64,000 bases of DNA, from contig NZ_JARP01000001.1 of NCBI RefSeq assembly GCF_000708595.2, positions 248,001-312,000 on the forward strand. The letters are read 5' to 3'. The notes beneath the pieces were generated by a model, which ran no database searches, was not told where the DNA came from, and saw nothing but the letters and a program-made list of their open reading frames with translations. The translations under genes were made by a program, and so were the position numbers. This DNA comes from Flavobacterium sp. KJJ (lineage in GTDB: Bacteria; Bacteroidota; Bacteroidia; Flavobacteriales; Flavobacteriaceae). Positions 5,014-37,719 of the stretch are shown here, in pieces; within the stretch, counting starts at the first letter, position 1, and each line of letters starts with the position of its first letter.

Positions 5014-5169
5014 AGATGTTATTAATATAGAACTGGTTTTGATTTTTAAATTAATATTATTAGCTAATTTTTGATATTAAATAAATTTTGTGAAAATTTA
5101 ACTGTTAAAATCGTTTTTTTGTTTATCTAGCGGTATTAATTTATTAAGTTTATAGCAAAATATAACTTT

Positions 5170-7809
5170 ATGGCCAAAAAATACATTAATTTCTTACAAA
5201 TAACCTTAATTTTTGTTTTTTTATCCTTAATGCCCCATACTATGTCTGCACAATGTGCAGGTGAAGACGGACAATTTACTGTTTGTAATATTACAGATCC
5301 CAGCAGTAAGACAATTGATCTATTTAGTAAATTAACAGGATCGCCACTTACTGGAGGAATTTGGAAAGATGATAATAGCTCGGGGGGACTAAATAGTACT
5401 ACAGGAATTTTAAATGTACAGCAAATCCGCAGAAGTGGTATATATCATTATACCTATACAGTTGACGGAATTGGTCTTTGTCCGGATAATGCTGCAACAG
5501 TAACAATTACAGTAGGTGGTTATGCAGGAGTTCCTTCTAATGCAGTTGTCTGTACTTCTGTCGTGATGTATAATCTTTTTCAAGCTTTTAATGGTCTTTA
5601 TTTAGGAGCTCAGTCTAATGGTAAGTGGTTTAATGATACTACAAATGAATATTTACCAGATTCTGATGGATCATATATTGATGTTTCTAATTATAAAAAA
5701 GGAGATTATCCGTTTACTTACACAATGGCTGCAGTAGGTACTTGTCCTGCAGTTTCTTCAAATGTTATAATTTCTGTTTACGAAGCGCCTAAAGCAGGAA
5801 CTGCAACAAAATTGCTATTGTGTGCTACAGATGGACTGTCAGCTTATACGAATGTTGATTTGAATACCTTACTATCTGGACAGGATCCTAATGGTACTTG
5901 GACAGATCAAAGTGGTACTGGAGAACTCACTTTTAGTGGAGACCACTTTGTTGATGCTCAAAAAATTTACAATAAATTTGGTACAGGTATCTTTAAATTT
6001 AATTATAAAGTTTTATCTACAGAAAATTCTATTTGTGTTGATGATGACGAGACTGTTGAAATTGTTATTGAAAAAAAACTAGATTTTACAGGGTCTACAA
6101 TTAAAGTAAATTCTGATATATGCGAAACAGATATTGCAACAGCAACTTATTATGTAACAATTGATAGAAATACTGCAGCAATACCAGATGGGAATTATTA
6201 TGTTCAATTGAATGTCTCAGGGTTTAATGGTGGTGGAGAGCTTTTTCAAGCTACTTTTCTTAATGGAAAACTTACTTTTCCAATTAGTTCAAAATATTTC
6301 CAACAGGTTGGAAATTATGTTGTAAATATTCTTAATATTTATTCGGTTGACGGGTATAGGGCATGTCAAAATATTTTAAACTTAACAGATACATTATCTG
6401 TTTTTCCAATACCTGATTTAATAGGCGCAAAAATAGCACCTATTATAGCTTGTCAAAATACCAATTCAACTGTAAATATATCTGATGCAATTAAGGTTGC
6501 TGATGGTACATATGATATTCGTTATACTATTTCAGGTGCAAATAATGCATCATCACAAATAGCGACAGTTACTTTTAGTGGAGGCAGTGCAAGCTTTCCT
6601 TTGCAGGCAATTTTAAATTCACAAAACGGAAATTCTGTCATCACTATTACAAGTATAAAACAAGAAACTACAACTTGTTCAAATACAGCTAATCTTAGAG
6701 GAGATATTATTGTAAATTCACTTCCAAATGCTTCGAATGTAAAAATACAGATTCCTGATGCTATTTGCTTCGGATCTCCAGTGAACGCTGCAGTTTCAGG
6801 ATTGGGAACTTTAACGAATGTAAAATTATCATATGTCCTTTCTGGCAGTAATACAGCTACGGTGCAGACAATTGACTTAAGTCCTGTAAACGGAAATGCT
6901 ACCTTTACAATTCCAGCAAATTTGCTTCTAAATACTGGCTTGACAACTGCTACAGTTACAAATTTAATCAACAATGTTACAGGCTGTTCTGCTAATGTTA
7001 CCGGAGCGTCTGATCCTTTTTCATTGAATCCTATTCCAGTTGCACCAGTTGCGGTCAATCAATCTTTTTGTAAATATGATCTCCCTACCGTTGCCAATTT
7101 AGTACCAAATGGTGCGCAGTTTAGCTGGTACATTTCTGCCACGGCAACAACGCCTCTTGCAAGTACTTATCTATTAAAATCAGAAGATTATTATGTGAAA
7201 GAAACTGCTTTGGGATGTACATCTGAGGCAACAAAAATTTCAGTTACTTTAAATGATATTCCGGCTCCTGAATTAAATCAGGATGGGGAAAAATTCTGCG
7301 GATTAGACTCACCAACTATTGCCGATTTATCGAATAATACAAACGCATCATCTTCAATAGTTTGGTACGATTCCAATGGAATTTTACAGGCGTCAACAAA
7401 TCCTCTAATTGATAAAAAGGAATATATTGGATACGATTTTTCAACAGCAACACCAAGCTGTCGTTCTTTTGATAGCCTGAAAGTTATAGTTTCACTAACT
7501 AATTGTCCTGAAGTGCCTAGTACTTTCTTTATTCCTGATGGATTTTCACCAAACGGAGATGGCGTAAACGATGTTTTTGTTATTCCGGATATTGACTTTC
7601 TGTATCCTGATTATATTATTGAAATTTTCAATAGATATGGAAACGGGATGTACAGAGGCGGAAAAGATAAACCAGGCTGGGACGGATTAAATTATGAAAC
7701 GCAAGGCCTGAATCATGGAATTGCGCCAAACGGAGTTTATTTTTATGTTCTCCATTTTAATAAAGATAACAAGCCTCCTAAACAAGGCCGCCTTTATTTA
7801 AATAGATAA
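5170..7809 (+). CDS. T9SS type B sorting-domain (gliding motility-associated) surface protein
   Basis: An 879-residue secreted protein. It has an N-terminal signal peptide (to about residue 27, ending MSAQ), then several degenerate Ig-like/adhesin-type repeats of about 90-100 residues with paired cysteines. A C-terminal type B sorting domain covers about 790-879 and is recognised by FFIPDGFSPNGDGVNDVFVI, EIFNRYG, the GWDG segment and the final NGVYFYVL strand. Family knowledge: such CTDs direct export through the type IX secretion system and retention at the cell surface, as for SprB. Next to it lie a PorP/SprF-type and an OmpA-type gene, the usual partners of a type B substrate. The adhesive role is inferred. 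Confidence 0.9.
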   Translation: MAKKYINFLQITLIFVFLSLMPHTMSAQCAGEDGQFTVCNITDPSSKTIDLFSKLTGSPLTGGIWKDDNSSGGLNSTTGILNVQQIRRSGIYHYTYTVDGIGLCPDNAATVTITVGGYAGVPSNAVVCTSVVMYNLFQAFNGLYLGAQSNGKWFNDTTNEYLPDSDGSYIDVSNYKKGDYPFTYTMAAVGTCPAVSSNVIISVYEAPKAGTATKLLLCATDGLSAYTNVDLNTLLSGQDPNGTWTDQSGTGELTFSGDHFVDAQKIYNKFGTGIFKFNYKVLSTENSICVDDDETVEIVIEKKLDFTGSTIKVNSDICETDIATATYYVTIDRNTAAIPDGNYYVQLNVSGFNGGGELFQATFLNGKLTFPISSKYFQQVGNYVVNILNIYSVDGYRACQNILNLTDTLSVFPIPDLIGAKIAPIIACQNTNSTVNISDAIKVADGTYDIRYTISGANNASSQIATVTFSGGSASFPLQAILNSQNGNSVITITSIKQETTTCSNTANLRGDIIVNSLPNASNVKIQIPDAICFGSPVNAAVSGLGTLTNVKLSYVLSGSNTATVQTIDLSPVNGNATFTIPANLLLNTGLTTATVTNLINNVTGCSANVTGASDPFSLNPIPVAPVAVNQSFCKYDLPTVANLVPNGAQFSWYISATATTPLASTYLLKSEDYYVKETALGCTSEATKISVTLNDIPAPELNQDGEKFCGLDSPTIADLSNNTNASSSIVWYDSNGILQASTNPLIDKKEYIGYDFSTATPSCRSFDSLKVIVSLTNCPEVPSTFFIPDGFSPNGDGVNDVFVIPDIDFLYPDYIIEIFNRYGNGMYRGGKDKPGWDGLNYETQGLNHGIAPNGVYFYVLHFNKDNKPPKQGRLYLNR

Positions 7810-25354: not shown

Positions 25355-27658
25355 TTAAACGCTTTCCTGTAAAATAGAATACACCAGTTCTTTAGTTGGT
25401 TTTTGATCTTTAAGTTTTGCCCTGACATCATCAAAAGTGACTTTAAAATCACAGCCTAATTTATAATCGCCACAACCATAAGCAGTTTTTCCTTTCATAA
25501 CAGTTCCTTTTTTGCACTTAGGGCAATTTAAAGAATCTGATGTTGAGGCCGGAGCTGGTTTTACTGCTGTTTTCTTCGGTTCTAATTTGAGTTTATAGTT
25601 TTCTTCAAAACGAATCAAACCTTCAACAGTTCCAGAATCGGTTTTAAAACCTTTTATGTTTACTGTCGATCCTTTTTGAACCAATCTTAAATACTGACTT
25701 TCTGTGATTTTTTTACCGGCAAAAACATACGGAAGTACAAAGTCACAACCGGCTTTATATTCACTGCATCCAAAAGCCGATTTTCCTTTTATCAGATTTC
25801 CTTTTTTACATTTCGGACACGTTTCTGCCAAAATTCCGGCAGCTTTCTTTTTCTCCGCTTTTACGATTGGCTTTTGAATCGTTGCAGCGTGCGAAATATT
25901 GGCGTGTCGGGTTTCACTTCTAACTTCTGTTACCAAAGCTTCTACCATGCGTTTCATGTTTTTTATGAACGCACCGGCTGTAAAAGTACCTTTTTCAATA
26001 TCTTTTAGCTGTTTTTCCCAGGAACCTGTAAGTTCTGCCGATTTGATCAGTTCATTCTGAATCGTATCAATCAGCTGAATTCCCGTTGGAGTTGGCAAAA
26101 CCTGCTTTTTATTTCGAACAATATATTGGCGTTTAAAAAGCGTTTCGATAATATTCGCGCGTGTTGATGGACGTCCAATTCCGTTTTCTTTCATCAATTC
26201 GCGCAAGTCTTCATCGTCTACTTGTTTTCCCGCGGTTTCCATGGCGCGTAGCAGAGTTGCCTCTGTAAACTGATTTGGCGGTTTTGTTTCTTTTTCTAAG
26301 AATGAAGGTTCATGGGGACCTTTTTCTCCAACAACAAAACTTGGCAATAAATCAGCTTCTTTTTCTTTGGCATTTGGATCTTCAAATACAACTCGAAATC
26401 CTTTTTTTAGAATTTCTTTTCCCGTTGCTTTAAACATTACATCGTCAGCTTTTCCAATTACTGTTGTATTTGCAACCAAACAGTCGTCATAAAAAACGGC
26501 AATAAAACGTTTTACAATAATATCATAAACCTGTTGCTGATTGTACGGTAAATTGCTTTCGATTCCGGTTGGAATAATAGCGTGGTGATCCGTAACTTTT
26601 TTATCGTTAAAAATTTTTGGTGATTTTTTAATCTTCTTTTCTAAAACGGGCTGCGTCAAAGCTGCATACTTCGTCAGTTTTTGCAAAATTCCAGGTACTT
26701 TCGGATAAATATCATTTGGCAAAAAAGTCGTATCAACTCTAGGATACGTTACCACTTTTTGCTCGTACAGCGATTGCGCAATTTTAAGCGTTTCATCTGC
26801 CGAAAATCCAAATTTTGTATTGCAATATACTTGCAGGCCAGTTAAATCAAAAAGTTTTGGCGCAAATTCGTTTCCGTTTTTTTTATCAATTGAAACAATT
26901 TCGAAGTCGCTTTCTTTGACTTTGTTGGCTAAAATTTCTCCATCTTCTTTATTTAAAAAACGGCCTTCTTCATAACTAAAAAGTGTTTCTCTATATAAAG
27001 TCTGTAATTCCCAATAGGGTTGGGGCTTAAAATTTTCAATTTCTTTAAAACGATCCACAACCATTGCTAATGTTGGGGTCTGCACGCGTCCGATAGACAA
27101 TACTTGTTTATAACCGCCATGTTTTACGGTATACAAACGTGTGGCATTCATGCCTAATAGCCAGTCGCCAATCGCTCTCGAAAATCCGGCGTAAAAGAGA
27201 TTATCGTAATTAGTCGATGGTTTTAAGTTTTCAAAACCTTCCTTTATGGCTTCGGTAGTTAGAGATGAAATCCATAAGCGCTGTACTTCGCCCTTATAAT
27301 TCGCCTCATTCATCACCCAACGCTGAATCAATTCTCCTTCTTGTCCGGCATCCCCGCAGTTTATAACGACTTCGGCTTTGTCGAATAGGCTTTTTACAAT
27401 TTTAAATTGCTTTTGAATTCCTGAATTTTGAACCACTTTTGTCTCAAACTTTTCAGGAAGCATAGGCAGATTATTTAAATCCCAGCTTTTCCAATGTGGT
27501 TTGTAATCGTTCGGTTCTTTCAGGGTACATAAATGTCCAAAAGTATATGTTACGGCATAACCGTTTCCTTCGTAATAGCCATCGTGTTTGGTATTGGCAC
27601 CCAAAACGGATGCGATTTCACGTGCTACACTTGGTTTTTCGGCAATACAGACCTTCAT
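25355..27658 (-). CDS. topB: DNA topoisomerase III
   Basis: Type IA topoisomerase of 767 residues that relaxes or decatenates DNA through single-strand passage. The TOPRIM domain starts at residue 1 (MKVCIAEKPSVAREIA), with the acidic motif in NCGDAGQEGELIQRW. The catalytic tyrosine is Tyr305 in VTYPRVDTTFLP. GRPSTRANIIETL and the other core motifs are present. The C-terminus holds two zinc-binding repeats (CPKCKKG...GCSEYKAGCDF and CPKCKKG...GCGDYKLGCDF), as in Bacteroidota TopB proteins. No mobile-element genes lie beside it, so it is probably the chromosomal housekeeping copy. Confidence 0.96.
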   Translation of the reverse strand: MKVCIAEKPSVAREIASVLGANTKHDGYYEGNGYAVTYTFGHLCTLKEPNDYKPHWKSWDLNNLPMLPEKFETKVVQNSGIQKQFKIVKSLFDKAEVVINCGDAGQEGELIQRWVMNEANYKGEVQRLWISSLTTEAIKEGFENLKPSTNYDNLFYAGFSRAIGDWLLGMNATRLYTVKHGGYKQVLSIGRVQTPTLAMVVDRFKEIENFKPQPYWELQTLYRETLFSYEEGRFLNKEDGEILANKVKESDFEIVSIDKKNGNEFAPKLFDLTGLQVYCNTKFGFSADETLKIAQSLYEQKVVTYPRVDTTFLPNDIYPKVPGILQKLTKYAALTQPVLEKKIKKSPKIFNDKKVTDHHAIIPTGIESNLPYNQQQVYDIIVKRFIAVFYDDCLVANTTVIGKADDVMFKATGKEILKKGFRVVFEDPNAKEKEADLLPSFVVGEKGPHEPSFLEKETKPPNQFTEATLLRAMETAGKQVDDEDLRELMKENGIGRPSTRANIIETLFKRQYIVRNKKQVLPTPTGIQLIDTIQNELIKSAELTGSWEKQLKDIEKGTFTAGAFIKNMKRMVEALVTEVRSETRHANISHAATIQKPIVKAEKKKAAGILAETCPKCKKGNLIKGKSAFGCSEYKAGCDFVLPYVFAGKKITESQYLRLVQKGSTVNIKGFKTDSGTVEGLIRFEENYKLKLEPKKTAVKPAPASTSDSLNCPKCKKGTVMKGKTAYGCGDYKLGCDFKVTFDDVRAKLKDQKPTKELVYSILQESV

Positions 27659-27754
27659 TTCTTATTTTGATTTAAAGGCGAAATTAGGAATTTTTTATAA
27701 GAAAAGGGACAAAGGTTTTTAGGAACAAAGGGACAAAGGTTTATTTGGGCTCAT

Positions 27755-27870
27755 GCAAAAGCGCAAAGTTTTTCCTTATTAATTTTAAACTTAGCGTCTT
27801 GGCGACTTTGCGAGAAAATTGTGCATTGTGATTAAAGCAAAAATAATCTCGCAAAAGCGCAAAGTTTTTC
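27755..27870. repeat. Intergenic direct and inverted GCAAAG repeats
   Basis: In the gap between topB and the monooxygenase gene, a 20-bp sequence (GCAAAAGCGCAAAGTTTTTC) occurs twice, at 27755-27774 and 27851-27870. Between them, TTTGCGAGA is the inverse of TCTCGCAAA before the second copy. The same GCAAAG vocabulary returns in the hairpins at 48563 and 53123. Confidence 0.6.
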
Positions 27871-27879
27871 TTTTATTAT

Positions 27880-29040
27880 TTATTCTCTGCTAAAAAACGC
27901 CAACATTGTTTCTAATGAGTCTTTCGAATGCATTTTCTCACCATTTTCAAGTGACTCTTGTGCTGCTTTTGAAGCTCTTTCACGCATATTATTTTCATAA
28001 TTACCAATGGCTTCCTGAATTGTATTATAGGTATTAGAAGTCAGACATTCACTCAGTTCTAAAGCATCCAGCATCGCCATATTAGCACCTTCGCCGGCAA
28101 AAGGAGGCATAACATGTGCAGCATCTCCAATTATAGTTGTATTAGAAAGTGTTTCCCAGTTTTGATCTAAAGGCATGCAATAAATAGGACGCGGAATATA
28201 CGCTGCAGAAACATTTTCGAAAAGTTCATACCAAGTAATGCTCCATTCTGGATATACTTTTTTAAACCATTCTACTATTTGAGATTTGTCAGAAAAATCT
28301 AAACCGCTGTTCTGCGTCCAATTTTCATCGACTTTAAAGCTGGCGTAGAAGCCTAAAGCGCCGTCTCCTTTTTGTCCCAACAAGATATTTTTCTCATTTC
28401 CAAAAGCCATTATTTTTCCGCCATTCAGCAGCGAATCGATATGCGGTGCCGCTTTTTTAGATTCATAAATATTGCCTTCCAGCATTGTTATGCCTGAATA
28501 AAATGGTTTGATATCAGTAATGTAGGGACGGATTTTAGAATTGGCACCGTCAGAACCAATGACAATATCTGCATAAACTGATGAGCCGTTTTTGAAATGC
28601 AATAACCAGCCTCCATTTTGTTTTTCCATCGAAATAAAATGACTGTCCCAGATGATCGTTTCGGGTTTTAAGGATTCCAGTAAAATTTTTCGCAATACAC
28701 CGCGGTCAATTTCAGGACGAAAATATTCATTGTCAAAATCTTCTTCAAGATTTGTTTCGTGGTCGCTGTAAAATATTTTTGCCTGTTCGTCTAAAATCAA
28801 GGTTTTATCAGCACCCGGCATAAAGTTGTTTTTAAATTCATTAAATAAATTGGCTTTGCGAATCGCTGCCAAACCTGATTCGTCATGCAAATCTAATGGC
28901 GAGCCTTGTACTCTTGCGTTTTTATTTAAATCTCTTTCGTATACTTTTACATTTACATTTTTCAATTGCAAAAGTCTGGCTAAAGTAAGTCCGCCTGGAC
29001 CGCCGCCAATAATAGCGACTTGTTTATTTTCTAGTAACAT
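27880..29040 (-). CDS. FAD-dependent monooxygenase of the TetX-like family
   Basis: A 386-residue class A flavoprotein monooxygenase. It has the FAD-binding GGGPGG motif (12-17), YERD at the end of the second strand, the IGSDGANSKIR (DG) motif and IIGDAAHVMPPFAGEGAN (GD) motif. Length and order match Tet(X), and the segment GDAAH-MPPFAG-G-N is nearly the same. At positions I align with the Tet(X) tetracycline-binding residues Gln192, Arg213 and His234, this protein has Glu, Lys and Gly, so drug inactivation is doubtful. Flavobacteriaceae carry many such homologues. The AraC gene 60 bp upstream may control it. The substrate is unknown. Confidence 0.88.
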   Translation of the reverse strand: MLLENKQVAIIGGGPGGLTLARLLQLKNVNVKVYERDLNKNARVQGSPLDLHDESGLAAIRKANLFNEFKNNFMPGADKTLILDEQAKIFYSDHETNLEEDFDNEYFRPEIDRGVLRKILLESLKPETIIWDSHFISMEKQNGGWLLHFKNGSSVYADIVIGSDGANSKIRPYITDIKPFYSGITMLEGNIYESKKAAPHIDSLLNGGKIMAFGNEKNILLGQKGDGALGFYASFKVDENWTQNSGLDFSDKSQIVEWFKKVYPEWSITWYELFENVSAAYIPRPIYCMPLDQNWETLSNTTIIGDAAHVMPPFAGEGANMAMLDALELSECLTSNTYNTIQEAIGNYENNMRERASKAAQESLENGEKMHSKDSLETMLAFFSRE

Positions 29041-29100
29041 TCCGTTTTTTTTAGATTTAATTTTATCCCGTCAGCTTTTCAGCTTTGGATCGGGACAAAA

Positions 29101-29856
29101 TTATTGCTCTTTTAGAACGGATAATAGTATAAATCGGTCATCCTTATTTTTTAGCAGTTCGCTCGGTACAACGCCAGAGAATTTTTTGATTTCCTTGATG
29201 AAATGATTTTGATCTGCGAAGTTTAATTCTGGAAAAAGTCGGCCTTGAGCAATATGTTCTAAAGACGCTTTGAAACGTAGAATTTTACAAAAAGCATTTA
29301 ATGAAAGTCCGAATTTCTTATTGAAATAACGGTTGATTTCTCGACTGCTCCAAGCTATTTTTTCAGAAAGCTCCTGTACTTTGATTTCGCCGTTTGAAGC
29401 GTAAATTAAATCAAAAAGCTGGCATTTTCTTTCGTCGATTTTGCTTGGTAAAAGTTCGCTTAGTTTTAAGATTATTTTTTGATGAAAGGCATCAAAATCT
29501 TTTAAATCATTGACATTAACATTCCAAAAATCTGTTGAGAGATTTTTTGCGCTGTTTAATATGTCGGCAATAGAAGTCTGTAAAATATATTCAACTCCCA
29601 AAGGTTTAAAACTGACTTTGAAGGCAATGGTGTGTGGCGGAATAGCGCGTTGTTCTGGAACTGTTTCTAATCCGATTAAGGTGACATGAAAAGCTGCTGT
29701 TTCAGATTGAAGAAAAAACAAATCAATTCTTCCGTCAGGCATTAATACGACTTCTTTAGGTTTATCTGACAGATTCTGAAACATTCCAATGTTTTCTACA
29801 AAGTCAGCCAGTGGTTTTTCTGGCACGATGAATCTGTAATGGAAGTCGTTGTTCAT
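29101..29856 (-). CDS. AraC-family transcriptional regulator
   Basis: A 251-residue regulator. The N-terminal part (about 1-140) resembles the cupin-like DUF6597 domain found in Bacteroidota AraC proteins (MPDGRIDLFFL, PPHTIAFKVSFKPLGVEYIL). The C-terminal part is a two-helix-turn-helix AraC DNA-binding domain (EIKVQELSEKIAWSSREINRYFNKKFGLSLNAFCKILRF, then FADQNHFIKEIKKFSGVVPSELL). It lies 60 bp upstream of the TetX-like monooxygenase gene, same strand, and probably forms a transcription unit with it. The inducer is not known. Confidence 0.88.
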   Translation of the reverse strand: MNNDFHYRFIVPEKPLADFVENIGMFQNLSDKPKEVVLMPDGRIDLFFLQSETAAFHVTLIGLETVPEQRAIPPHTIAFKVSFKPLGVEYILQTSIADILNSAKNLSTDFWNVNVNDLKDFDAFHQKIILKLSELLPSKIDERKCQLFDLIYASNGEIKVQELSEKIAWSSREINRYFNKKFGLSLNAFCKILRFKASLEHIAQGRLFPELNFADQNHFIKEIKKFSGVVPSELLKNKDDRFILLSVLKEQ

Positions 29857-29968
29857 TGTTAGTGGAGATTTTACCGCAAAGAGCAGTTTTTTATTGATTT
29901 TAATTATACCCCTTTTATTTCATCCCTCGTTGCTTGGGATGACAAGATTAAGCGTGAATTTTATAAAA

Positions 29969-31078
29969 CTAAGCTTTCTTTTTTCTTTCTGTTAAATATT
30001 TCCGAATTGGAATATCATAAAAAATCATGGTTAAATAAGCAAAACCAAGCAAAATAATTGTGCCTAAAGTTATAATAAAAAACAGTTGATTTGCATCTGG
30101 TTTGTACTTTGCGTAATAGTTCGCAAACATCCACATAACGGCATAATGCGTCATGTATAACGGGTATGATATTTTTCCAAAAAAGACGCATATTTTTCTG
30201 AATCCGCTGCTTAATTTTGCTCCGGCTCCTAATGCAATTAATAATGGAAAATAGAGCAAAACGACTACAGGTTCTGTCAGCCAATTCAAATTTGAAAAAG
30301 GAAGTAAAAAGGCTAGGAGCAATAAAACAGATAAGCCTATAAACCCAAGTTGAGATTTAATTATCCAATTAGAACGGTAAAGTAGCATACCGGCTAAAAA
30401 AGAATAGGAAATTCGCGCTCCGCCGTCCCAAAAGGTTTCGCCGCTCCAACCGCCCAATAACGAACCGCCTGCTCGATTGCTGACAAAACAAATTCCGACT
30501 GCAGCAAAAACAGTTAATAAAAATAGGGAACGACGGCTTAATTTGTAAAGAAAAAGCGCGTATAGAATATTAGCAGCATATTCCCAAAACAAAGACCAAG
30601 CAGGCGCATTTAAGCCAAACAAATTGAAATAACGATCTGCCATTACCGGAAACGGAATCAAGAGAATCGAACTCAAAAATACCAAAAGTATTTTGCCAGT
30701 TTCGTACGTTTGAGCATGTCCGCCAAACGGATCAAAAAGAAAAGCCAGCAAACCCAAAACCGAGCCAAAAATAACCAAAGGATGCAACCTGATTAATCTT
30801 AAATTAAAAAAATCGGTAAGTTTCATTTTGGCAATACGGTCGTGATACGCATACGCAATGACAAATCCAGAAAGGCAAAAGAAAAAGTCAACGGCTAAAA
30901 ATCCATGAGCAATAAAATTTTTTTCTGGCGTATAAACGATTTCCATAAAATGAAAAACAACAATGGCTAAAGCAGCGATTCCTCTTAAGCCGTCTAGGAT
31001 TTCAAAATGCTGTTTTGGTTTTATTGGTTCGATATTTATGTTTTCGTCAGGTTGAATTTTTAGTTTTTGGATGTTCAT
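29969..31078 (-). CDS. Acyltransferase 3 (OafA/YrhL-like) membrane protein
   Basis: An inner-membrane O-acyltransferase of 369 residues with about 10 helices. The family start is clear in HFEILDGLRGIAALAIVVFHF, with the conserved Arg and the His at the end of TM1, and in LAVDFFFCLSGFVIAYAY and the RLIRLHPL segment. I set the start at the ATG at 31076-31078 (MNIQKLKIQ), because the longer frame runs into the end of the upstream PhzF-like gene. Such enzymes acetylate cell-surface sugars or secondary metabolites; the acceptor is unknown here. It follows the PhzF-like gene by 43 bp. Confidence 0.88.
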   Translation of the reverse strand: MNIQKLKIQPDENINIEPIKPKQHFEILDGLRGIAALAIVVFHFMEIVYTPEKNFIAHGFLAVDFFFCLSGFVIAYAYHDRIAKMKLTDFFNLRLIRLHPLVIFGSVLGLLAFLFDPFGGHAQTYETGKILLVFLSSILLIPFPVMADRYFNLFGLNAPAWSLFWEYAANILYALFLYKLSRRSLFLLTVFAAVGICFVSNRAGGSLLGGWSGETFWDGGARISYSFLAGMLLYRSNWIIKSQLGFIGLSVLLLLAFLLPFSNLNWLTEPVVVLLYFPLLIALGAGAKLSSGFRKICVFFGKISYPLYMTHYAVMWMFANYYAKYKPDANQLFFIITLGTIILLGFAYLTMIFYDIPIRKYLTERKKKA

Positions 31079-31121
31079 AGAAGTCTTTCTATTTTTAAAT
31101 GGTTTTTCAGACCAAAAATAT

Positions 31122-31919
31122 TTATAAAACAAATTCCCCTTCCAAGACAATTACAGCTTCTCCTAAAATAAAAACTTTTTCATCTACAAGTTCCGTACTC
31201 ATTGTTCCTGTTCGTAATGAAGACTGAAACGCTCTGAATTTTGTTTTATTCAATTTTTTAGCCCAATATTTTGTCAAAAAGGTTTGAATACCGCCTGTTA
31301 CCGGATCTTCATTCGTTCCGGCCCATGGCCAAAAATAACGGTAATGAAAATCGAAATTTTCATGGTCTGAAACAGCAGTTACAAGCACTCCGCTAATTCC
31401 TGTGTGCGAATTTAGCAATGCTGTAAAATCTGGTTTTAAATTAGCGAGTTCAGGTGCACTCTTAATTTCGATTAAAATGATTTTATTATTTGGGCTGTAT
31501 CTTTGGTCTTCAATTTCAGCAATTCCGAGTGCTTTTAGCATATTTTGAGGCACTTCAATTTCTTCTGTTTCGTAAACAGGAAATTGCATTTTGATTTTAT
31601 TGCCTGCTTTTTCAATAAACAGTTCAACATTTTCGTAGTTAATAAATTTTATACTTTCGAATGAAGTCGTATTGAAAATGATTTTAGACGAAGCCAGTGT
31701 CGCGTGCCCGCATAACGGAATTTCAGTTTTTGGACTGTAAAACCGAATGCTGTAACTGTTGTCTGTTATTGGTCGTATAAAAGCAGTTTCAGAAAAACCA
31801 ATTTCAGTCGCAATGGCCTGCATTGTAGCGGCATCTAATTCGGTTTCAGGCAAACAAACTGCAGCAGGATTTCCTTTAAATTTTTCATTGGTAAAAGAGT
31901 CAACAAAATAAGTTTTCAT
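31122..31919 (-). CDS. PhzF-family isomerase
   Basis: A 265-residue protein of the PhzF/YddE (DAP-epimerase-like) fold. The general acid/base Glu44 is in EIGFSETAFI. The two half-domain motifs are CGHATLASS and EDPVTGGIQT, as in the family. True phenazine PhzF acts on DHHA, but no other phenazine gene is nearby and most homologues have unknown isomerase or epimerase activities. It is probably co-transcribed with the acyltransferase gene downstream. The start is preceded by an A-rich leader. Confidence 0.9.
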   Translation of the reverse strand: MKTYFVDSFTNEKFKGNPAAVCLPETELDAATMQAIATEIGFSETAFIRPITDNSYSIRFYSPKTEIPLCGHATLASSKIIFNTTSFESIKFINYENVELFIEKAGNKIKMQFPVYETEEIEVPQNMLKALGIAEIEDQRYSPNNKIILIEIKSAPELANLKPDFTALLNSHTGISGVLVTAVSDHENFDFHYRYFWPWAGTNEDPVTGGIQTFLTKYWAKKLNKTKFRAFQSSLRTGTMSTELVDEKVFILGEAVIVLEGEFVL

Positions 31920-32020
31920 TTTTTTTATTTTGGTTAAGTATAGTTATTATTCGCTTCTTCTATCTATTCTGAAATATAGCAAAGCGATTGCAAGTTGCAA
32001 AAAAAAATATATTCGAAGAG

Positions 32021-32623
32021 TTATTTGAAAGATGTAATAAAGTTTTCTCTTAAGATAGCTCCTAAATTTTCATCTTCATAGAGGATAACTGCTGTAAAGA
32101 GATGATTGCTTATATAAGAACTGTAAATTTCTTGGGTTAAAACTAACTTGCTTGTTTGAGAATACATATGAATCAAAATTTTGTAAAAGTCATATTGACC
32201 TAGTTTTAAATCGCTATTTACAACGTCAAACTTAATTCTTTCTTTTGAGTACATCTCTTGCAGTACTTTCAAAGATGTGGATTTATGTTCTTCAAACGTG
32301 ATTTTCTCCTTGTCTTGTAAAGATTCGTAAGCCGCTGTAAAAATATTTTGTTTGCCTTTTCTAAAACTTATTAGAGTTGTAATTTCTTTGCCGCTATTTT
32401 CTTCTTTAGATCCAAAATCCAGGTCTTCTAATTCTCCTTCTGAAATTATGCTAAAACCAACCGGAATGTCAATTTGCCAATCGAGCAAATTATTTTTATC
32501 ATTTGCGTCTGCAGAAATCTCCTTTTTTACTTCATTTTTATTCGAAGGATTAATTTGTTTTTGCTGACAAAAGCAAGAAAAGGGAATAAAAAGCAATAAA
32601 AAGTTAAAGTATATTTTTTCCAT
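32021..32623 (-). CDS. Exported protein of unknown function
   Basis: A 200-residue protein with a signal peptide that ends near FSCFCQ (either a lipobox at Cys17 or ordinary cleavage after Cys19-Gln). The mature part begins with a polar stretch (KQINPSNKNEVKKEI) and has the layout of a PsbP/Mog1-like alpha-beta fold: IDIPVGFSIISEGELEDLDFG, ITTLISFRKGKQN, a long helix, YDFYKILIHMYSQTSKLVLTQEIYSSYI. No family could be named. It is one of a run of small envelope genes on this strand. Confidence 0.7.
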   Translation of the reverse strand: MEKIYFNFLLLFIPFSCFCQQKQINPSNKNEVKKEISADANDKNNLLDWQIDIPVGFSIISEGELEDLDFGSKEENSGKEITTLISFRKGKQNIFTAAYESLQDKEKITFEEHKSTSLKVLQEMYSKERIKFDVVNSDLKLGQYDFYKILIHMYSQTSKLVLTQEIYSSYISNHLFTAVILYEDENLGAILRENFITSFK

Positions 32624-32656
32624 AATATCTGTTTAATAATTTTTGTGTTTCGATAA

Positions 32657-32681
32657 TATGGATTGCCAATCCGCGCTATTT
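32657..32681 (-). repeat. REP-like palindrome, inverted copy 1
   Basis: Contains the perfect palindrome GGATTG-C-CAATCC followed by GCGCTAT. It matches in reverse orientation the element seen at 33860 and 34360. It lies between the 200-residue exported protein gene and the DUF218 gene. Confidence 0.65.
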
Positions 32682-32684
32682 AAA

Positions 32685-33242
32685 TTACTGTGTATAATAA
32701 CCTGCAAATTCTCTGATAATCGAATATACATCTTTAATTTCAAAATAATTTGGACTTACACTGCTTACATTCTGAAAACCTTGCTTTTTAAATAACATTT
32801 TTGTTCTCGTTACATGAAAATATTGCGATACGACAATTATGCTTTTAAAGTGCAGACTATCTTTTAGTTTCATTATATTTTCTACCGTTGCGCGCGTATT
32901 GTTTCCGAAGTTGTCGACAATAATTAAAGAATCAGGGACTTTATTTGCCACTAAAAAATCTCTCATTTTATTTCCTTCATAAAAACCTTCTTTGCCTAAA
33001 CCGCCGCTCACGATTATTTTTTTTATGCGGCGATTTTGGTATAAACCGAGTCCGCATTCTAAGTGCTTTTTAAGACGTTCTGAGAGTGTTCCGTCTTCGT
33101 TTACTTTGTTGCCAAGAATAACCGCAACATCGGCATTTTTTCCGTTATCGCTCAAACCATCAACGGTTATAAATATGGTGTGACCAATAAACCAAATTAA
33201 AAATAGGGTTAGGAGTATTTTAAATGTTCGTTTCCAGTTCAT
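32685..33242 (-). CDS. DUF218 (YdcF/SanA/ElyC-like) membrane protein
   Basis: A 185-residue protein with one N-terminal transmembrane helix (FKILLTLFLIWFIGHTIF) and a DUF218 domain on the outer face. Family motifs are VILGNKVNEDGTLSERLKKHLECGL, IIVSGGLG-EGF-EG, VDNFGNNTRATVEN and the final IVVSQYFHVTRTKMLFKKQG. SanA/ElyC relatives act in envelope integrity and polysaccharide-precursor metabolism; the reaction is not known. A REP-like palindrome touches its 3' end. Confidence 0.87.
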   Translation of the reverse strand: MNWKRTFKILLTLFLIWFIGHTIFITVDGLSDNGKNADVAVILGNKVNEDGTLSERLKKHLECGLGLYQNRRIKKIIVSGGLGKEGFYEGNKMRDFLVANKVPDSLIIVDNFGNNTRATVENIMKLKDSLHFKSIIVVSQYFHVTRTKMLFKKQGFQNVSSVSPNYFEIKDVYSIIREFAGYYTQ

Positions 33243-33322
33243 GAAATGATTGGTAATTAGTGATCTAGGTATTTGATAGATTTCGTTAAGTAAGATACCT
33301 TACATTAATGAATCAAAATTTG

Positions 33323-33823
33323 TTAGTACAAAATAAATGTCTTGCTGTAGACACGTTTATTTTCGATATAAAGGTTCATTTCCCATTTTCCTTTAATTAA
33401 CTCATAAGGTTCGTCTAAGCTGTATGAAGAAGCAGAAGGAATATTTGTTGGTCTTTGAGTGGTATATTTTATACTTTTAAATTTTTCTCCTTTATTGTTT
33501 GTTACTTTTTCTGGATAAATCCATTCAATGTCGATCGCCAGATTAACAGTGTCTTTGGCTTTTACCATATAAACTACTCCAAAATTTGCTTTTTTTACAG
33601 CCTTAATCGAATCCGTATTTTTGATTATGACAAAATCTTTTAGCCATCCATGAGTGCCTGTTGGAGTGTTGTTAACTTGTTCCGTTGTGCCATCTTCGAC
33701 TTTTGCCAGTCCGTAGTCAAGTTCTTTAAGTTCTAAAGTTCCATAACTTTTAGATTTAATAGCAGCTTGCGAAAAAATAGTTTGTAAAACAAAGAACGAA
33801 AGTAAAGTGTAGATAATTTTCAT
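33323..33823 (-). CDS. Exported DUF3859-like protein
   Basis: A 166-residue protein with a signal peptide (MKIIYTLLSFFVLQTIFSQ). The mature part is an Ig-like beta sandwich: ANFGVVYMVKAKDTVNLAIDIEWIYPE, then DEPYELIKGKWEMNLYIENKRVYSKTF. The G-K-W-hydrophobic-Y/W ending is like DUF3859, a family of unknown role; the match is from pattern only. It is the next gene upstream of the DUF218 gene on the same strand. Confidence 0.7.
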   Translation of the reverse strand: MKIIYTLLSFFVLQTIFSQAAIKSKSYGTLELKELDYGLAKVEDGTTEQVNNTPTGTHGWLKDFVIIKNTDSIKAVKKANFGVVYMVKAKDTVNLAIDIEWIYPEKVTNNKGEKFKSIKYTTQRPTNIPSASSYSLDEPYELIKGKWEMNLYIENKRVYSKTFILY

Positions 33824-33859
33824 TTGTATTGGGCTGGTTTTGAGTTAAGACATTTAGTT

Positions 33860-33897
33860 CGATAGCGCTGATTTGCAATCCGTGCCCGCAAAGATTA
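33860..33897 (+). repeat. REP-like palindrome, direct copy 2
   Basis: A 38-bp element: CGATAGCGC, then a palindromic core around GATTTGCAATC, then CGTGCCCGCAAAGATTA. It differs by one base from the copy starting exactly 500 bp further on. Confidence 0.85.
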
Positions 33898-33908
33898 CTA
33901 TTTTTTTA

Positions 33909-34325
33909 TTATGGCTGTAATGAATCTATTATTTTATTGACTTTGACTAATTCTAGTTTGCTTTTTTGAGTTTCTTTTTCTGTAATGTTTATTGTGAATG
34001 AACAAATAAACATTTTGTCGTTTACAATTAAAAGCCAGTAGGTAATGAAATTTAGTTCATCTTCATCGGAATATTTTATGCCATTAAATCCGTTTTGGGT
34101 TTTAAGCTTTTCTGCTCGTCCTTCAAAACTTTTCATTTCAGATTCTAATAATTCATCACCTTTTTTTTGATCAATTTGAATTGAAGATATTCTTAGATTT
34201 CCTGTCCATTCTATAGTGTCAAAAAAAGCATTTGTGTTTTTTTCATCCTCATATTCAGCCCAGTTTTCTGGTAAGAAAATTTTATATCCAAATTCAGAAA
34301 TAAATTCTTTATTGTTAAAATTCAT
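33909..34325 (-). CDS. Small cytosolic protein, possibly DUF3805
   Basis: A 138-residue protein with no signal peptide. The ATG at 34323-34325 is used because the upstream part of the open frame is encoded by the REP-like palindrome (34360-34397) and is unlikely to be translated. The sequence has FGYKIFLPENWAEYEDEKNTNAFFD, then TGNLRISSIQ and later FITYWLLIVNDKMFICSFTIN. This layout is like DUF3805/PsbP-like small proteins of Bacteroidota, but I am unsure. The gene lies between two direct copies of the REP-like element. Confidence 0.6.
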   Translation of the reverse strand: MNFNNKEFISEFGYKIFLPENWAEYEDEKNTNAFFDTIEWTGNLRISSIQIDQKKGDELLESEMKSFEGRAEKLKTQNGFNGIKYSDEDELNFITYWLLIVNDKMFICSFTINITEKETQKSKLELVKVNKIIDSLQP

Positions 34326-34359
34326 TTGGTTTATATTATTAATGATTTTAGAGCGACTC

Positions 34360-34397
34360 CGATAGCGCGGATTTGCAATCCGTGCCCGCAAAGATTA
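34360..34397 (+). repeat. REP-like palindrome, direct copy 3
   Basis: Second direct 38-bp copy: CGATAGCGCGG, palindromic core GGATTTGCAATCC, then GTGCCCGCAAAGATTA. The core forms a hairpin. It lies just upstream of the small DUF3805-like gene start. Confidence 0.85.
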
Positions 34398-34412
34398 ATT
34401 TTTTATAAATAT

Positions 34413-34443
34413 AAAAAAGCTACATGATCTTTGTAGCTTTTTT
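34413..34443. terminator. Bidirectional hairpin, terminator-like
   Basis: Perfect 12-bp stem AAAAAAGCTACA / TGTAGCTTTTTT with a 7-nt loop, carrying A/T runs for both strands. It lies between two REP-like elements, with no obvious plus-strand gene to terminate. Confidence 0.6.
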
Positions 34444-34477
34444 ACTTTAAATATTTGTATTGCGTCTCATTGTTGTA

Positions 34478-34504
34478 GGCACGGATTGAAAATCCGCAAT
34501 CGGG
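34478..34504 (-). repeat. REP-like palindrome, inverted copy 4
   Basis: GGCACGGATT-GAA-AATCCGCAATCGGG is a diverged copy in reverse orientation to those at 33860 and 34360. Copies 3 and 4 thus make a head-to-head pair, as in BIME-type REP arrangements. Confidence 0.7.
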
Positions 34505-34523
34505 TTGCAGTTTTTTTAAATGT

Positions 34524-34558
34524 AAAAAAAAATACGCAAAGTCAGAGACGTTTGCGTA
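34524..34558 (-). terminator. Terminator of the Rad50-like ATPase operon
   Basis: Perfect 8-bp stem TACGCAAA / TTTGCGTA with a 10-nt loop. On the minus strand it is followed by nine T residues. It lies 49 bp past the ATPase stop codon. Confidence 0.8.
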
Positions 34559-34606
34559 GCTTTTCGTGAGAACACTTTGGAGAGCGGGGTTTGTCGATTT
34601 ATAGAA

Positions 34607-37039
34607 TTAATCTTTCCAATCGTATTTAGTTTTGCCACATCCTCCACATCTAATTTGTTTATTTACAGTATCGAAATTTCTTACTGAAACTTTAGTTTTT
34701 TTGCATTTCTCATCTTGACAGTTAAAAATGTTTTCCATTTCTTTGATATCTGCCCAAAAAGCTTTCAAATCACCTATTTTGGGATTAAAACGATTGTCAT
34801 GAGAAAGAAGATTTCCTAACACAGAAGAGCTTGCTACTCGATCTATAGTCGGAAATTGATTTTGTAAATCTTTACTCTTTGATCTTATTCTTGATTTTAA
34901 TTCATTAAGTAATTCATCTGGCATTCTTTTTTCATTTACTTCATTAAGTCTGAAACTTACTTTTACATCAAGATTAATGCATATTTCTTTTAAGGAATAT
35001 TCTAGATATTTCCTTAGTGGATTACCCAACCCATCAATTTCTGATCCTGCAATTTTTTTCTCAATTTTAGCTTTGAGTTCCCCTGTAGAGTCTTCAAAAT
35101 GGGTTCCTCTAGATTCTGTCCATTTTATTTCGTTAACAACCCAACCATTTTTTTTCGCTAATGGCTTTACCAAATTTCTAAACCATTCTTCTTCGTGAGT
35201 TAATAGTATAATTTGAAAATTTGAAAATTTTTCAAAAAGTAAATCGGCAAATCTCTTTCTGTGATTTGAGTCAAAACTAGAAATTACGTCATCCAATATT
35301 ATAAATTCATTTAAATGATTAAAAGCTTTAACTGATGCTAAAAAAAAAGAAATACCAAAACAATTAAGATGTGATTCACTAAAGTATTTTTGAGGTGGAG
35401 ATACCCAATCTCCATTGTATTTATATTGAATTGTTATACCATTAAGTTCATCTTCTTCACCAATAGTAATAATCTTTATTTCCTGAAATGGTTCATCAGG
35501 ATTCATATATTGATAGTATTCATTTATCTTGGTAGAAAATGAATTAATAAAGTTATCAAGTCCTTCTTTTTGAGCTTTTACAAATTCATTATAGATAATG
35601 GCAAGAGATGTACTTTGTTTTTTAAGGTTTTGACGATCTTCTTCAAGTGTTTTGATTTTTAAAAAAGCCTCTTTTGAAGATAAAATGTTTGAATAAATTT
35701 CAGTTATATTGTCCTTTTTAATTAATTCATTAATGTTTTTAAGTCTTTTAGCTAAGTTTTCTAAAAATAAAAAGTCGAATTTATTTAAAAAAATTTCCAT
35801 AACATTTTTAATCTTTTCCCCAGAGGTGACTTTTACGTAACTGGTACCTTCCATGATGTTGATTTTTTTCTTCAATGATTCCAGCTCTTTTTTTTCTTGC
35901 TCATTTTCTTGCAGTTTAAATATTGGATCCAATAACAAAAAATCAATTCTTTTACCTCTTTCGATAGTTGTAGCTTTAACCAACTCTTGAGACTTTTTAA
36001 AAGAAGTCAACTTTTGAGATGCTTCTTCTACCTCTTTAAGGCGTTCAGCGATTTCATTGCGTAAGTCATTAATATTTTTATGTTGTAAACAAAGTGGGCA
36101 ACTTTGTTTTTTATGATACTTTTGGATAATATTATCTCCTAGTTTTAAAAATTCGCCTATATAAGTTTTCATTATACCCTCAACATCTTCTGCAATTTTT
36201 TGAAATTCGTTGTAATAATTTAGATAATTTAGATTGATGTTTTCAATTTCTGATTGAATTCCACTAGAAACAGTTTGAATTTTTTCAATAAAGTTCTTTT
36301 CTTTAATAAGTTTTTCATTAGTTGCTAATTTTAGAGTTTCCAATAATAAATTTAAATCTTCAAAATTGGCCACTTTGATGTTAACGTTTAATGGAATTAT
36401 AATTGAATTTATAATGTCAAATAATTCTTGCTCTTGATTAGTAGAAACTGCAATTTTTTCAGCAAGAATTCTTTTTTGACCTAAAATTTGACCTTCAAAA
36501 TTTTGTGTTCTTATTTCTGTATTAATAGAAAAATATGCTTTTCTTAAAATTTCTTTCTTTTTAGTAATTTCAGAATAACCAATGATATCTGATAAGTATT
36601 TCAATTTATCTCCCTTTGTTATATCAACAAAATTATTTAAACTTTTATATCTTAAAATTAAGTTTTCTTCTTTTGAATCAATTAAGTATTGCTTAATTAA
36701 CTCTGTTTTAATTGTATAATCTTGTTCCAATTTTTCTTTTTTGAAAAAGAGTGTTTTTGAAGTATCTAAATCAGTTTTTTTATGAAATTTCAAGTTAATT
36801 TCAGCAACCTCACCTTTCTCTAGGTACGCATTTCTAAGAGCATCCTTTAAATCTATCTCTATACTTCCTAAATGCGAAACCTTATTGGTGTAAAACCATT
36901 CAATCGAATCAGAAATACTACTTTTTCCCATTCCATTATCGCCATAAAGTACAATAGATTTACCATTTAATTCTAATGATAATGTTTCTTTTACTCCTCG
37001 CAATCCTTTTATATCGATTTGTTTAAGTTTGTTTTTCAT
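34607..37039 (-). CDS. Rad50/RecF-like AAA (ABC-type) ATPase with zinc hook and C-terminal zinc ribbon
   Basis: An 810-residue SMC/RecF-class ATPase. Walker A is GDNGMGKSS (33-41). Long coiled-coil arms (about 180-310 and 320-500) surround a zinc-hook-like CPLC at 314-317. The signature-like segment is FSESHLNCFG (Ser554), Walker B is FIILDD (Asp583, Asp584), and the H-loop His615 is in LTHEEEWF. After the ATPase comes an extra domain (about 640-770; LRKYLEYSLKEIC and LGNLLSHDN) with no known name to me. The end is a zinc ribbon with Cys774, Cys779, Cys798 and Cys801. RloC, PtuA and similar defence ATPases share the ATPase class, but no nuclease motif could be assigned. It overlaps a 62-codon gene by 17 bp. 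Confidence 0.85.
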   Translation of the reverse strand: MKNKLKQIDIKGLRGVKETLSLELNGKSIVLYGDNGMGKSSISDSIEWFYTNKVSHLGSIEIDLKDALRNAYLEKGEVAEINLKFHKKTDLDTSKTLFFKKEKLEQDYTIKTELIKQYLIDSKEENLILRYKSLNNFVDITKGDKLKYLSDIIGYSEITKKKEILRKAYFSINTEIRTQNFEGQILGQKRILAEKIAVSTNQEQELFDIINSIIIPLNVNIKVANFEDLNLLLETLKLATNEKLIKEKNFIEKIQTVSSGIQSEIENINLNYLNYYNEFQKIAEDVEGIMKTYIGEFLKLGDNIIQKYHKKQSCPLCLQHKNINDLRNEIAERLKEVEEASQKLTSFKKSQELVKATTIERGKRIDFLLLDPIFKLQENEQEKKELESLKKKINIMEGTSYVKVTSGEKIKNVMEIFLNKFDFLFLENLAKRLKNINELIKKDNITEIYSNILSSKEAFLKIKTLEEDRQNLKKQSTSLAIIYNEFVKAQKEGLDNFINSFSTKINEYYQYMNPDEPFQEIKIITIGEEDELNGITIQYKYNGDWVSPPQKYFSESHLNCFGISFFLASVKAFNHLNEFIILDDVISSFDSNHRKRFADLLFEKFSNFQIILLTHEEEWFRNLVKPLAKKNGWVVNEIKWTESRGTHFEDSTGELKAKIEKKIAGSEIDGLGNPLRKYLEYSLKEICINLDVKVSFRLNEVNEKRMPDELLNELKSRIRSKSKDLQNQFPTIDRVASSSVLGNLLSHDNRFNPKIGDLKAFWADIKEMENIFNCQDEKCKKTKVSVRNFDTVNKQIRCGGCGKTKYDWKD

Positions 37040-37211
37040 CTTTTTTTCTTAATTGCTCTAGTCCATTTTTTATAGCTTTTTCACTTAGTAGGTCATCTTT
37101 GTAAAGTTGAGAGATTAATTGAGAAATTTTAGGGTCAACACCTTTTAGTGATTGTATAGTTTCAAAAAAGGAATCTAAAATTTCTTGACCGGATTTTACT
37201 TCTTTGCTCAT
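37023..37211 (-). CDS. Small charged helical protein, partner of the ATPase
   Basis: A 62-residue protein with no signal or membrane segment, rich in Lys, Glu, Gln and Leu. It is predicted as two or three amphipathic helices (GQEILDSFFETIQSLK and SEKAIKNGLEQLRKK). Its last 17 bp overlap the ATPase start region in another frame, so the two are translationally coupled and the peptide is probably a cofactor or regulator of the ATPase. No family recognised. A small helical partner beside a large coiled-coil ATPase is a layout often seen in accessory/defence loci; function here is inferred only. Confidence 0.7.
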   Translation of the reverse strand: MSKEVKSGQEILDSFFETIQSLKGVDPKISQLISQLYKDDLLSEKAIKNGLEQLRKKDEKQT

Positions 37212-37719
37212 TTTTTCTATTTAAAATATTTATATATTGTTGAATTATCAGATTATGCGCTTTTAAAACTAAATTTGTTTACTTGCCTTCTAATTAAATT
37301 TGAAAGAAAATTTATCAATCTTAAATTTTGTGCAAAAAGCTGTTTTTTCTCTTTTTTATTTATGACATCTTATCATAAATCAGTGCTTTTGGTGGAAGTA
37401 GTAGGCGTAAATGTAAACAAACATCGTCTTTAATTTAAATTAAACACTGCGTAAAAACACCTGATTTTATTTAAAATAATTTTGTTAAAAGTAAATACCA
37501 TTAATTGAATGATTTTACGGAAATCCATAAAAGTAAATTAAAACTCAGAAATCCCCCAGTTTCTGATAGAATTGAAAATACTTTTATAAATTAGAGCAAA
37601 AAAATGTAACGTATCCGAAGTTTCAATATAAATCCATTCCGTAAAACCAACAAAATCCCCACAAATAATCATAATGGTAATCTGATTACTTGAAACTGTG
37701 AACTGATTACTTTTTTTTG
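37212..37719. other. Intergenic region between the ATPase operon and prfA
   Basis: About 510 bp, very A+T rich. It must hold the divergent promoters. I see no ORF with gene-like composition, no tandem repeat and no strong hairpin; a 10-bp inverted pair (TTTTACGGAA / TTCCGTAAAA) lies about 120 bp apart. The plus-strand open frame at 37185-37433 looks like chance. Confidence 0.6.

Follow-up and report, generated by a model that had tools for sequence, protein, structure and literature searches.

A two-gene locus of Flavobacterium sp. KJJ as the probable nuclease-less derivative of an operon encoding a putative GIY-YIG nuclease, a small helical protein and a zinc-hook Rad50-like ATPase

The window, a stretch of 64,000 nucleotides from Flavobacterium sp. 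KJJ (contig NZ_JARP01000001.1, positions 248,001 to 312,000), carries two overlapping genes that encode a small protein and a Rad50-like ATP-binding cassette (ABC) ATPase with a zinc hook (Table 1). Compared to related loci, this pair probably derives, by loss of a nuclease gene, from a three-gene operon that moves horizontally, in which the gene of a putative GIY-YIG nuclease precedes those of the small protein and the ATPase. The conclusion is based on the gene order, which is shared by all 16 distinct close relatives, on the conserved motifs of the nuclease, on its occurrence only where the ATPase is found (249 Flavobacterium genomes and a plasmid collection) and on a short scar that the window appears to have retained. 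A preliminary description, made from the letters of the window, gave the two minus-strand open reading frames (ORFs; 810 and 62 residues) and their 17-bp overlap correctly, but took them for a two-gene unit.

The three-gene operon of the close relatives

All 16 distinct Bacteroidota-type relatives examined have a gene for a putative GIY-YIG nuclease of about 151 residues that ends 5–7 nt before the gene of the small three-helix protein, which is followed by the gene of the zinc-hook Rad50-like ATPase. The upstream gene was found at all 14 loci of the genome contigs and in the genomes G112, G188, G225 and G521. These are counted as 16 distinct loci because the nucleases of G112 and G225 are identical to those of loci L019 and L020; two pairs among the 16 are near-copies. 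In the clade to which the window belongs (support 100/99), every other member examined has an adjoining nuclease gene, which lies within the operon at the 16 distinct loci and is divergent on plasmid L027.

The GIY-YIG superfamily is characterised by the GIY and YIG motifs together with an Arg, a Glu and an Asn, with catalytic roles known from the superfamily. The 151-residue protein of the relatives shows this pattern and is thus a putative nuclease: residues G28, Y30, Y50-I51-G52, R64, E109 and N127 are invariant in 12 of 12 aligned sequences, and the middle residue of the GIY motif varies between Leu and Ile. The homologue on plasmid L027 is annotated as a GIY-YIG nuclease.

Among the Flavobacterium genomes (n = 249 for both the ATPase and the nuclease search, with the same genome handles shown; nuclease cut-off for co-occurrence E 1e-6), three contain nuclease and ATPase, one, the genome of strain KJJ itself, contains the ATPase alone, none contains the nuclease alone and 245 contain neither (Fisher p 1.6e-6). 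In the plasmid collection, the nuclease query matches a single record (1/72,556); the same record contains the sole ATPase match with at least 80% query coverage, adjoining the nuclease gene. A nuclease search of 214 genomes of the family yielded none; this sample evidently lacks the known carrier G521, so that it held no positive control. The pairwise distances for nuclease, small protein and ATPase are correlated (r 0.88–0.91; 13 of 14 loci, L023 left out; uncorrected for shared ancestry).

The alignments differed in their rows. Alignment A1 comprised 13 of 15 rows (L015 and L023 removed as near-copies), A2 12 of 15 (without L015, L023 and L026, with L027) and A3 13 of 15 (without L023 and L026); A4 and A5 comprised 14 chosen loci. 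In the profile comparison of the small proteins, one further near-copy was left out of each set.

Loss of the nuclease gene in the window

An intact nuclease elsewhere was considered and rejected. The best match within the window had an E of 0.036 and was not at the locus, and the genome of strain KJJ (99.98% complete) yielded none at E 1, while four of four positive-control genomes were detected. The 17 nt before the small gene of the window are identical to those found where the nuclease gene and the small gene meet at Maribacter locus L013 (Table 1), and the encoded Tyr-Phe-Lys C-terminus is common to the aligned Bacteroidota nucleases. Such a junction match was reached in 1 of 200,000 first-order simulations, and when all 86 ATG ORFs of the window were considered the next best value was 7. 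Based on this scar, the pair appears to go back to the three-gene form, of which a deletion or replacement removed the nuclease gene up to its last few codons.

Constraint was compared over 14 rows (L015, L023 and L026 left out; L043, L044 and the window included). The small protein of the window deviates at 5 of 23 otherwise invariant columns (others 0–2) and its ATPase at 13 of 255 (others 1–24). The small protein also has the longest terminal branch of the 14, although the ratio to its ATPase branch is only the second highest. Synonymous sites are near saturation among the relatives. The small protein thus looks less constrained, and the ATPase less clearly so, which is weak, suggestive evidence of a relaxed constraint.

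Table 1 Features of the locus in the window
Feature	Position	Strand	Remarks
Rad50-like ABC ATPase, 810 residues, with zinc hook, C-terminal helical domain and Cys4 segment	34607..37039	minus	
Gene of the 62-residue three-helix protein, 17-bp overlap with the ATPase gene	37023..37211	minus	
Walker A, residues 33-41 (GDNGMGKSS)	36917..36943	minus	N35, G38, K39 and S40 invariant (14/14)
CPLC zinc hook, residues 314-317	36089..36100	minus	C314, P315 and C317 invariant (14/14 ATPases)
Walker B D583-D584 (second position Asp, not Glu/Gln)	35288..35293	minus	invariant (14/14)
C-terminal helical domain, residues 641-772	34724..35119	minus	N743 nearly invariant, H747 invariant; no Pfam match
C-terminal Cys4 zinc-ribbon-like segment, residues 774-801	34637..34720	minus	C774, C779 and C801 invariant (14/14)
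Presumed 17-nt scar of the lost putative GIY-YIG nuclease gene	37212..37228	minus	Tyr-Phe-Lys codons, stop, 5-nt spacer; identical to Maribacter L013

The ATPase

All ATPase motifs named in the preliminary description were found: Walker A (GDNGMGKS, 33-40), the CPLC hook within a long coiled-coil region, the signature (SESH, 554-557), Walker B (LDD, 582-584), the H-loop (T614-H615) and the C-terminal cysteines (Cys774/779/798/801). Over 14 chosen ATPases, with identities down to 16%, H615 and the residues marked as invariant in Table 1 are unchanged. Pfam SMC_N matches the protein at 8e-16, and the family profile ranks Rad50 first among solved structures (5.6e-22). The structure model is of moderate quality (pLDDT 69, pTM 0.44). 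In this predicted model the head has the Rad50/SMC fold (Foldseek best E 1.8e-11), and a VIA comparison with Rad50 5da9, which covered residues up to about 650, gave a Z of 20.5 with a root-mean-square deviation of 4.7 over 342 residues. The protein therefore has the traits of a Rad50/SMC-type ABC ATPase, i.e. a bipartite head, Walker A and B, the signature, the H-loop and a hooked coiled coil.

The helical domain begins after residue 640. Residues 641-775 found no match in Pfam (best 0.05–0.11, judged to be chance), and a Pfam identity for the region 641-810 was rejected. The preliminary description had assigned no RNase, nuclease or HEPN motif to this extra domain, and no known motif was found in residues 640-770 here either. 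N743 and H747 resemble the NxxxH part of the HEPN motif, without its Arg.

The small protein

A small ORF that overlaps the ATPase gene accompanies every homologue opened (16 close relatives and nine plasmid loci), which bears out the conserved small partner that had been proposed. The 62-residue ORF is not a chance ORF, since all 16 distinct close relatives have it conserved and overlapping. At the plasmid loci opened (9 of 49 records with an ATPase match), an annotated ORF of 53–80 residues overlaps the ATPase gene by 4–26 nt in all nine cases. Profile homology of these plasmid proteins with that of the window, checked for L027, L028 and L029, was obtained for L027 only (3.7e-4; L029 0.19; L028 not found).

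The model of the small protein consists of three helices (8-21, 27-38 and 44-60) without strands (mean pLDDT 87.6), and a Foldseek comparison with solved folds gave nothing significant. Single-sequence family matches were weak (W2 0.001, RecG 0.002, C3a64 0.005, PDC-S05 0.03), as was the match to HTH_71 (0.08, below the cut-off); the profile matched Mpn444 in the PDB at 1e-4. As these matches disagree with each other, they are regarded as chance matches between helical proteins. A resemblance to the C-terminus of Mod (E 0.005–0.006) was also rejected, as it disappeared when the profile was used. Upstream of the small gene of the window, no match to a Bacteroidetes-type promoter was found.

Distribution and insertion site

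The ATPase is present in 4 of 249 Flavobacterium genomes, 2 of 397 genomes of the family and 1 of 395 genomes of the phylum, with the genome of strain KJJ included in each case; a broader ATPase profile found it in 4 of 247 genomes. The genome samples used for the ATPase, LmuB-model and nuclease surveys overlap in part. Full-length relatives with 51–71% identity were found in Maribacter, Arenibacter, Flagellimonas, Cellulophaga, Leeuwenhoekiella, Lunatibacter and others, and an Aliiroseovarius plasmid carries a full-length relative at 29% identity. Such scattered occurrence is as expected for horizontally moving genes.

The site beside prfA is variable, since eight relatives hold other genes where the window has the pair (ORFs of at least 90 residues compared). 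None of the ORFs of at least 90 residues next to prfA in these eight relatives matches a window gene of the variable interval 27742-37715, and the conserved gene at 25355-27658 closes the interval within 9 kb in five of the eight. The locus had been described beforehand as a non-housekeeping system. This is supported by the sporadic occurrence of the ATPase: of the two outcomes named in advance as speaking against that description, neither a fixed housekeeping synteny nor a lack of conservation of the small ORF was observed.

Carriage of the close family by phages was rejected, as searches of viral collections found no close member and distant ATPases only; 5 of 13 such distant matches cover just the Walker A region. 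One contig of a viral collection (L108, 672-3325) carries a 62-residue ORF followed by an ATPase of 822 residues with C-terminal cysteines.

Neighbouring restriction and defence genes

Restriction–modification (R-M) genes lie upstream on the same strand at 10 of the 16 distinct loci. They are of the type III Res/Mod kind at L014, L015, L016, L023, L025 and L044, Eco57I-like at L018, L026 and L022 (with a 71-residue ORF in between at L022) and of the type I HsdR kind at L021. The R-M identity of L016, L023 and L026, as well as the Res of L015, was assigned by resemblance to scanned genes. Loci L018 and L026 share a near-identical operon with its upstream R-M genes in a Flavobacteriales metagenome-assembled genome and in Lunatibacter, which points to a recent transfer or a mis-binned contig. 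At L020 (F. enshiense, 4129-5331), a second nuclease of the GIY-YIG type (T5orf172/MUG113) and a DEAD helicase are found directly upstream of the trio. Genes downstream of the operons of G521 and L022 look conjugation-like by reading of the ORFs.

More distant loci have other neighbours. On a Halorhabdus tiamatea plasmid (L033, 3974-6638), the small gene and the ATPase gene lie between pglX and pglZ of a BREX-5 system. The ATPase locus of a Bradyrhizobium plasmid is near SbcD, MmeI and AbiE, and that of a Rhizobium plasmid near AbiE. Two genomes and a contig of viral origin (L088, L089 and L109) have an SNF2 helicase, the ATPase and a Mod-like gene in one operon, with a small gene at L089 and L109. 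G670 and G763 hold the ATPase in SNF2-AIPR-Mod operons (G670 scanned, G763 by resemblance), and no separate small gene was seen in the ORF list of G670. By eye, the order on contig L109 is XRE, SNF2-like helicase, small gene, ATPase and then Mod- and Res-like genes.

Taken together, the neighbourhoods would allow the small protein and the zinc-hook/Cys-ribbon ATPase to be a general companion module plugged into many bacterial and haloarchaeal DNA-modification defences (type III, Eco57I-like and type I R-M, BREX-5 and SNF2/Mod), with the GIY-YIG effector confined to one clade. We put this forward tentatively, at somewhat less than an even chance. If true, the module would be a shared DNA-sensing layer working with restriction, and the window a remnant left after its effector was purged.

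Points against the proposed origin and the possibility of a stand-alone pair

Several observations weigh against a nuclease-less derivative of a three-gene defence operon. The Pfam matches of the nuclease to GIY-YIG remain under the cut-off (best 21.2 vs 22.4 bits; none for L027), and its profile matches none of the solved structures, which is why the assignment relies on the motifs, along with the way in which the plasmid homologue is annotated. The L027 nuclease gene, although adjacent, is divergent and thus outside the operon. The scar sequence is AT-rich. As for the neighbourhood, some of the ten R-M neighbours are near-duplicates of each other (L016/L023 and L018/L026; L015 and L044 are of one type), and no R-M genes were recognised at 5 of the 16 loci (L013, L017, L019, L024 and L043), where most neighbours were not scanned. 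Furthermore, eight of the nine plasmid loci opened consist of the small gene and the ATPase gene without this nuclease. G188 holds, apart from its ATPase, a nuclease-like fragment (L042, C1:114595-114771; E 9e-4) with an internal stop. It matches the nuclease family weakly, in the C-terminal part, and is perhaps a decayed second copy.

The plasmid loci, together with viral contig L108, which likewise lacks the nuclease, raise the question of whether small protein and ATPase alone form a working two-gene system to which the nuclease is an optional addition. The ATPase of the window, which is intact with all its motifs, would fit such a system. Nevertheless, all other members examined of the clade of the window have the nuclease gene beside the pair and the window keeps the scar, so we consider a stand-alone pair unlikely. 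Descent from the three-gene form by loss of the nuclease gene remains the preferred explanation.

Comparison with known systems

The preliminary description had placed the ATPase in the class of RloC and Septu PtuA, which serve in phage defence or tRNA/DNA damage. The Rad50-like class was confirmed. The closest PADLOC model is LmuB (2.8e-24 and 3.9e-23), ahead of PtuA. According to PMC10586767, Lamassu encodes an effector, a small protein and an ATPase in one operon, in which sensing is attributed to LmuB and the effector action to LmuA. Lamassu (LmuA-LmuC-LmuB, DdmABC) and the trio thus both combine an effector, a small middle protein and a Rad50-like ATPase that often bears a zinc hook. A Lamassu of the ABC-3C kind whose effector is a GIY-YIG nuclease and whose LmuC is a miniature could explain these similarities, as well as the Foldseek match to LmuAB-DNA 9ux7 (E 2.9e-6, rank 41). 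However, the trio differs by its small nuclease, its small protein of 60 residues, its LDD Walker B and some 170 additional residues at the C-terminus (helical domain and Cys4). The window ATPase scores 80.5 bits against LmuB model PDLC03859, while ten Bacteroidota matches to the same model score 184–488 bits. No LmuC match to the small protein was obtained in PADLOC up to E 1. The nuclease has only about 151 residues in all relatives, which leaves no room for the C-terminal docking domain of LmuA-type effectors, and the effector examples in the excerpted part of PMC10586767 do not include GIY-YIG.

In an unrooted tree of 29 rows with long branches, the 17 family ATPases fall on one side of a branch with modest support (84/83). 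RecF and L106, one of the ten LmuB-model matches, lie on the same side on long branches, for which reason any placing of the family among ABC ATPases is tentative. L106 has an IDD, i.e. LDD-like, Walker B and is nearer to the family than the other LmuB matches, which speaks for a Lamassu affiliation. The excerpts of PMC10586767 state that the Walker B Glu is generally changed to Gln in LmuB. All 14 family ATPases have LDD, compared to the Gln of LmuB as published. Based on the low LmuB score, the modest tree split, the LDD Walker B and the missing docking extension, membership in Lamassu was not accepted and appears unlikely, slightly more so than a stand-alone pair. The LmuB match is a likeness of fold class.

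Among other systems, the excerpts of PMC10853773 describe a core of DndD/CxC ABC ATPase and DndE (Dnd, PbeABCD) whose surrounding genes for modification and for nucleases, URI/GIY-YIG among them, are exchanged. This core is alike in being an obligate pair of a coiled-coil ABC ATPase and a small protein with exchanged nucleases. It differs in that DndE is a ribbon-helix-helix protein according to the same excerpts, while three helices are modelled here, and in its CxC hook as opposed to CPxC. No DndD match was listed for the window proteins in the family scans, and PbeC matches two relatives weakly (0.0015 and 0.0014). The mad3 model of MADS is second to LmuB (7.6e-9 for the window ATPase, up to 2.8e-17 for relatives), but has 374 positions compared to 810 residues; the search covered mad3 among the MADS genes.

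Septu PtuAB, PARIS AriAB and retron ATPases also combine an ABC ATPase with a nuclease partner, and weak PtuA, AriA and retron matches were listed, mostly in the N-terminal head. Their partners are HNH or TOPRIM proteins. RloC/PrrC is a zinc-hook ATPase as well, and the alphaproteobacterial relative L027 matches AAA_13 at 1.1e-12; the difference is that no anticodon-nuclease domain was recognised in residues 640-810 of the window ATPase.

Rad50/SbcC-Mre11 shares the head fold and the CPxC hook, and relatives are tagged with double-strand-break repair in the gene ontology by electronic inference. The window protein could accordingly serve in DNA repair like Rad50/SbcC or RecF, without a role in defence. 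The coiled coil is shorter than that of Rad50/SbcC. The sporadic occurrence given above, the variable site beside prfA and the R-M, BREX and Abi neighbours make a repair protein very improbable. No Mre11/SbcD was recognised next to the pair or listed in the 16 relatives, most ORFs of which were not scanned; SbcD is annotated near two of the nine plasmid loci (L028 and L037). A toxin-antitoxin-like arrangement, in which the small protein would be the antitoxin of ATPase or nuclease, is the least probable: the small gene does precede and overlap the ATPase gene and has the weak HTH_71 match, but it was retained after the nuclease was lost, its family matches are weak and conflicting, its fold finds nothing significant and no toxic domain was identified in the ATPase.

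Among the papers listed by full-text searches, none was recognised as describing a GIY-YIG nuclease together with a small protein and a Rad50-like ATPase; the trio may be listed by Krishnan et al. 2020, whose classification of ABC ATPases is the likeliest source. A survey of BREX describes OLD-ABC modules as backup effectors (PMC12839542), and its excerpted text on these modules does not mention the present pair.

Proposed function

In fold and gene order, the trio is similar to Lamassu. As its most likely mode of action we propose a DNA-sensing ATPase that would license a nuclease via the small protein. By analogy to known families, the ATPase would dimerise via its heads and the CPLC hook and bind DNA, either ends or unusual DNA of an invader. 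The small protein would couple ATPase and nuclease and hold the latter inactive until DNA is sensed, upon which the released GIY-YIG nuclease would cut DNA. As the operon is frequently placed behind R-M genes, it might act as a second layer on DNA that restriction has cut or missed, a link suggested by the neighbouring genes. In the window, the effector step cannot run via the original nuclease, since its gene is gone. The ATPase is intact with its motifs, and the pair is therefore either a relic of recent date or retained for some remaining function in DNA binding or regulation.

Defence ATPases of the Rad50/SMC type are common. The relatives offer a compact set of a presumed 60-residue adaptor, a small putative nuclease and one ATPase behind several kinds of R-M genes, and the window adds a natural effector-less mutant. 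This makes two questions testable: whether the small protein restrains the nuclease, and whether the ATPase senses products of restriction. The locus is also a warning that a defence gene pair read from a single genome can be a truncated operon.

Repeats beside the locus

The repetitive extragenic palindromic (REP)-like elements noted earlier beside the pair exist. They lie at 33860-34500, between the ATPase gene and the next genes, and consist of a 53-nt direct pair with 89% identity, 500 bp apart, in which 27 nt are identical (at 33870 and at 34370), and of an inverted partial copy at 34473-34497.

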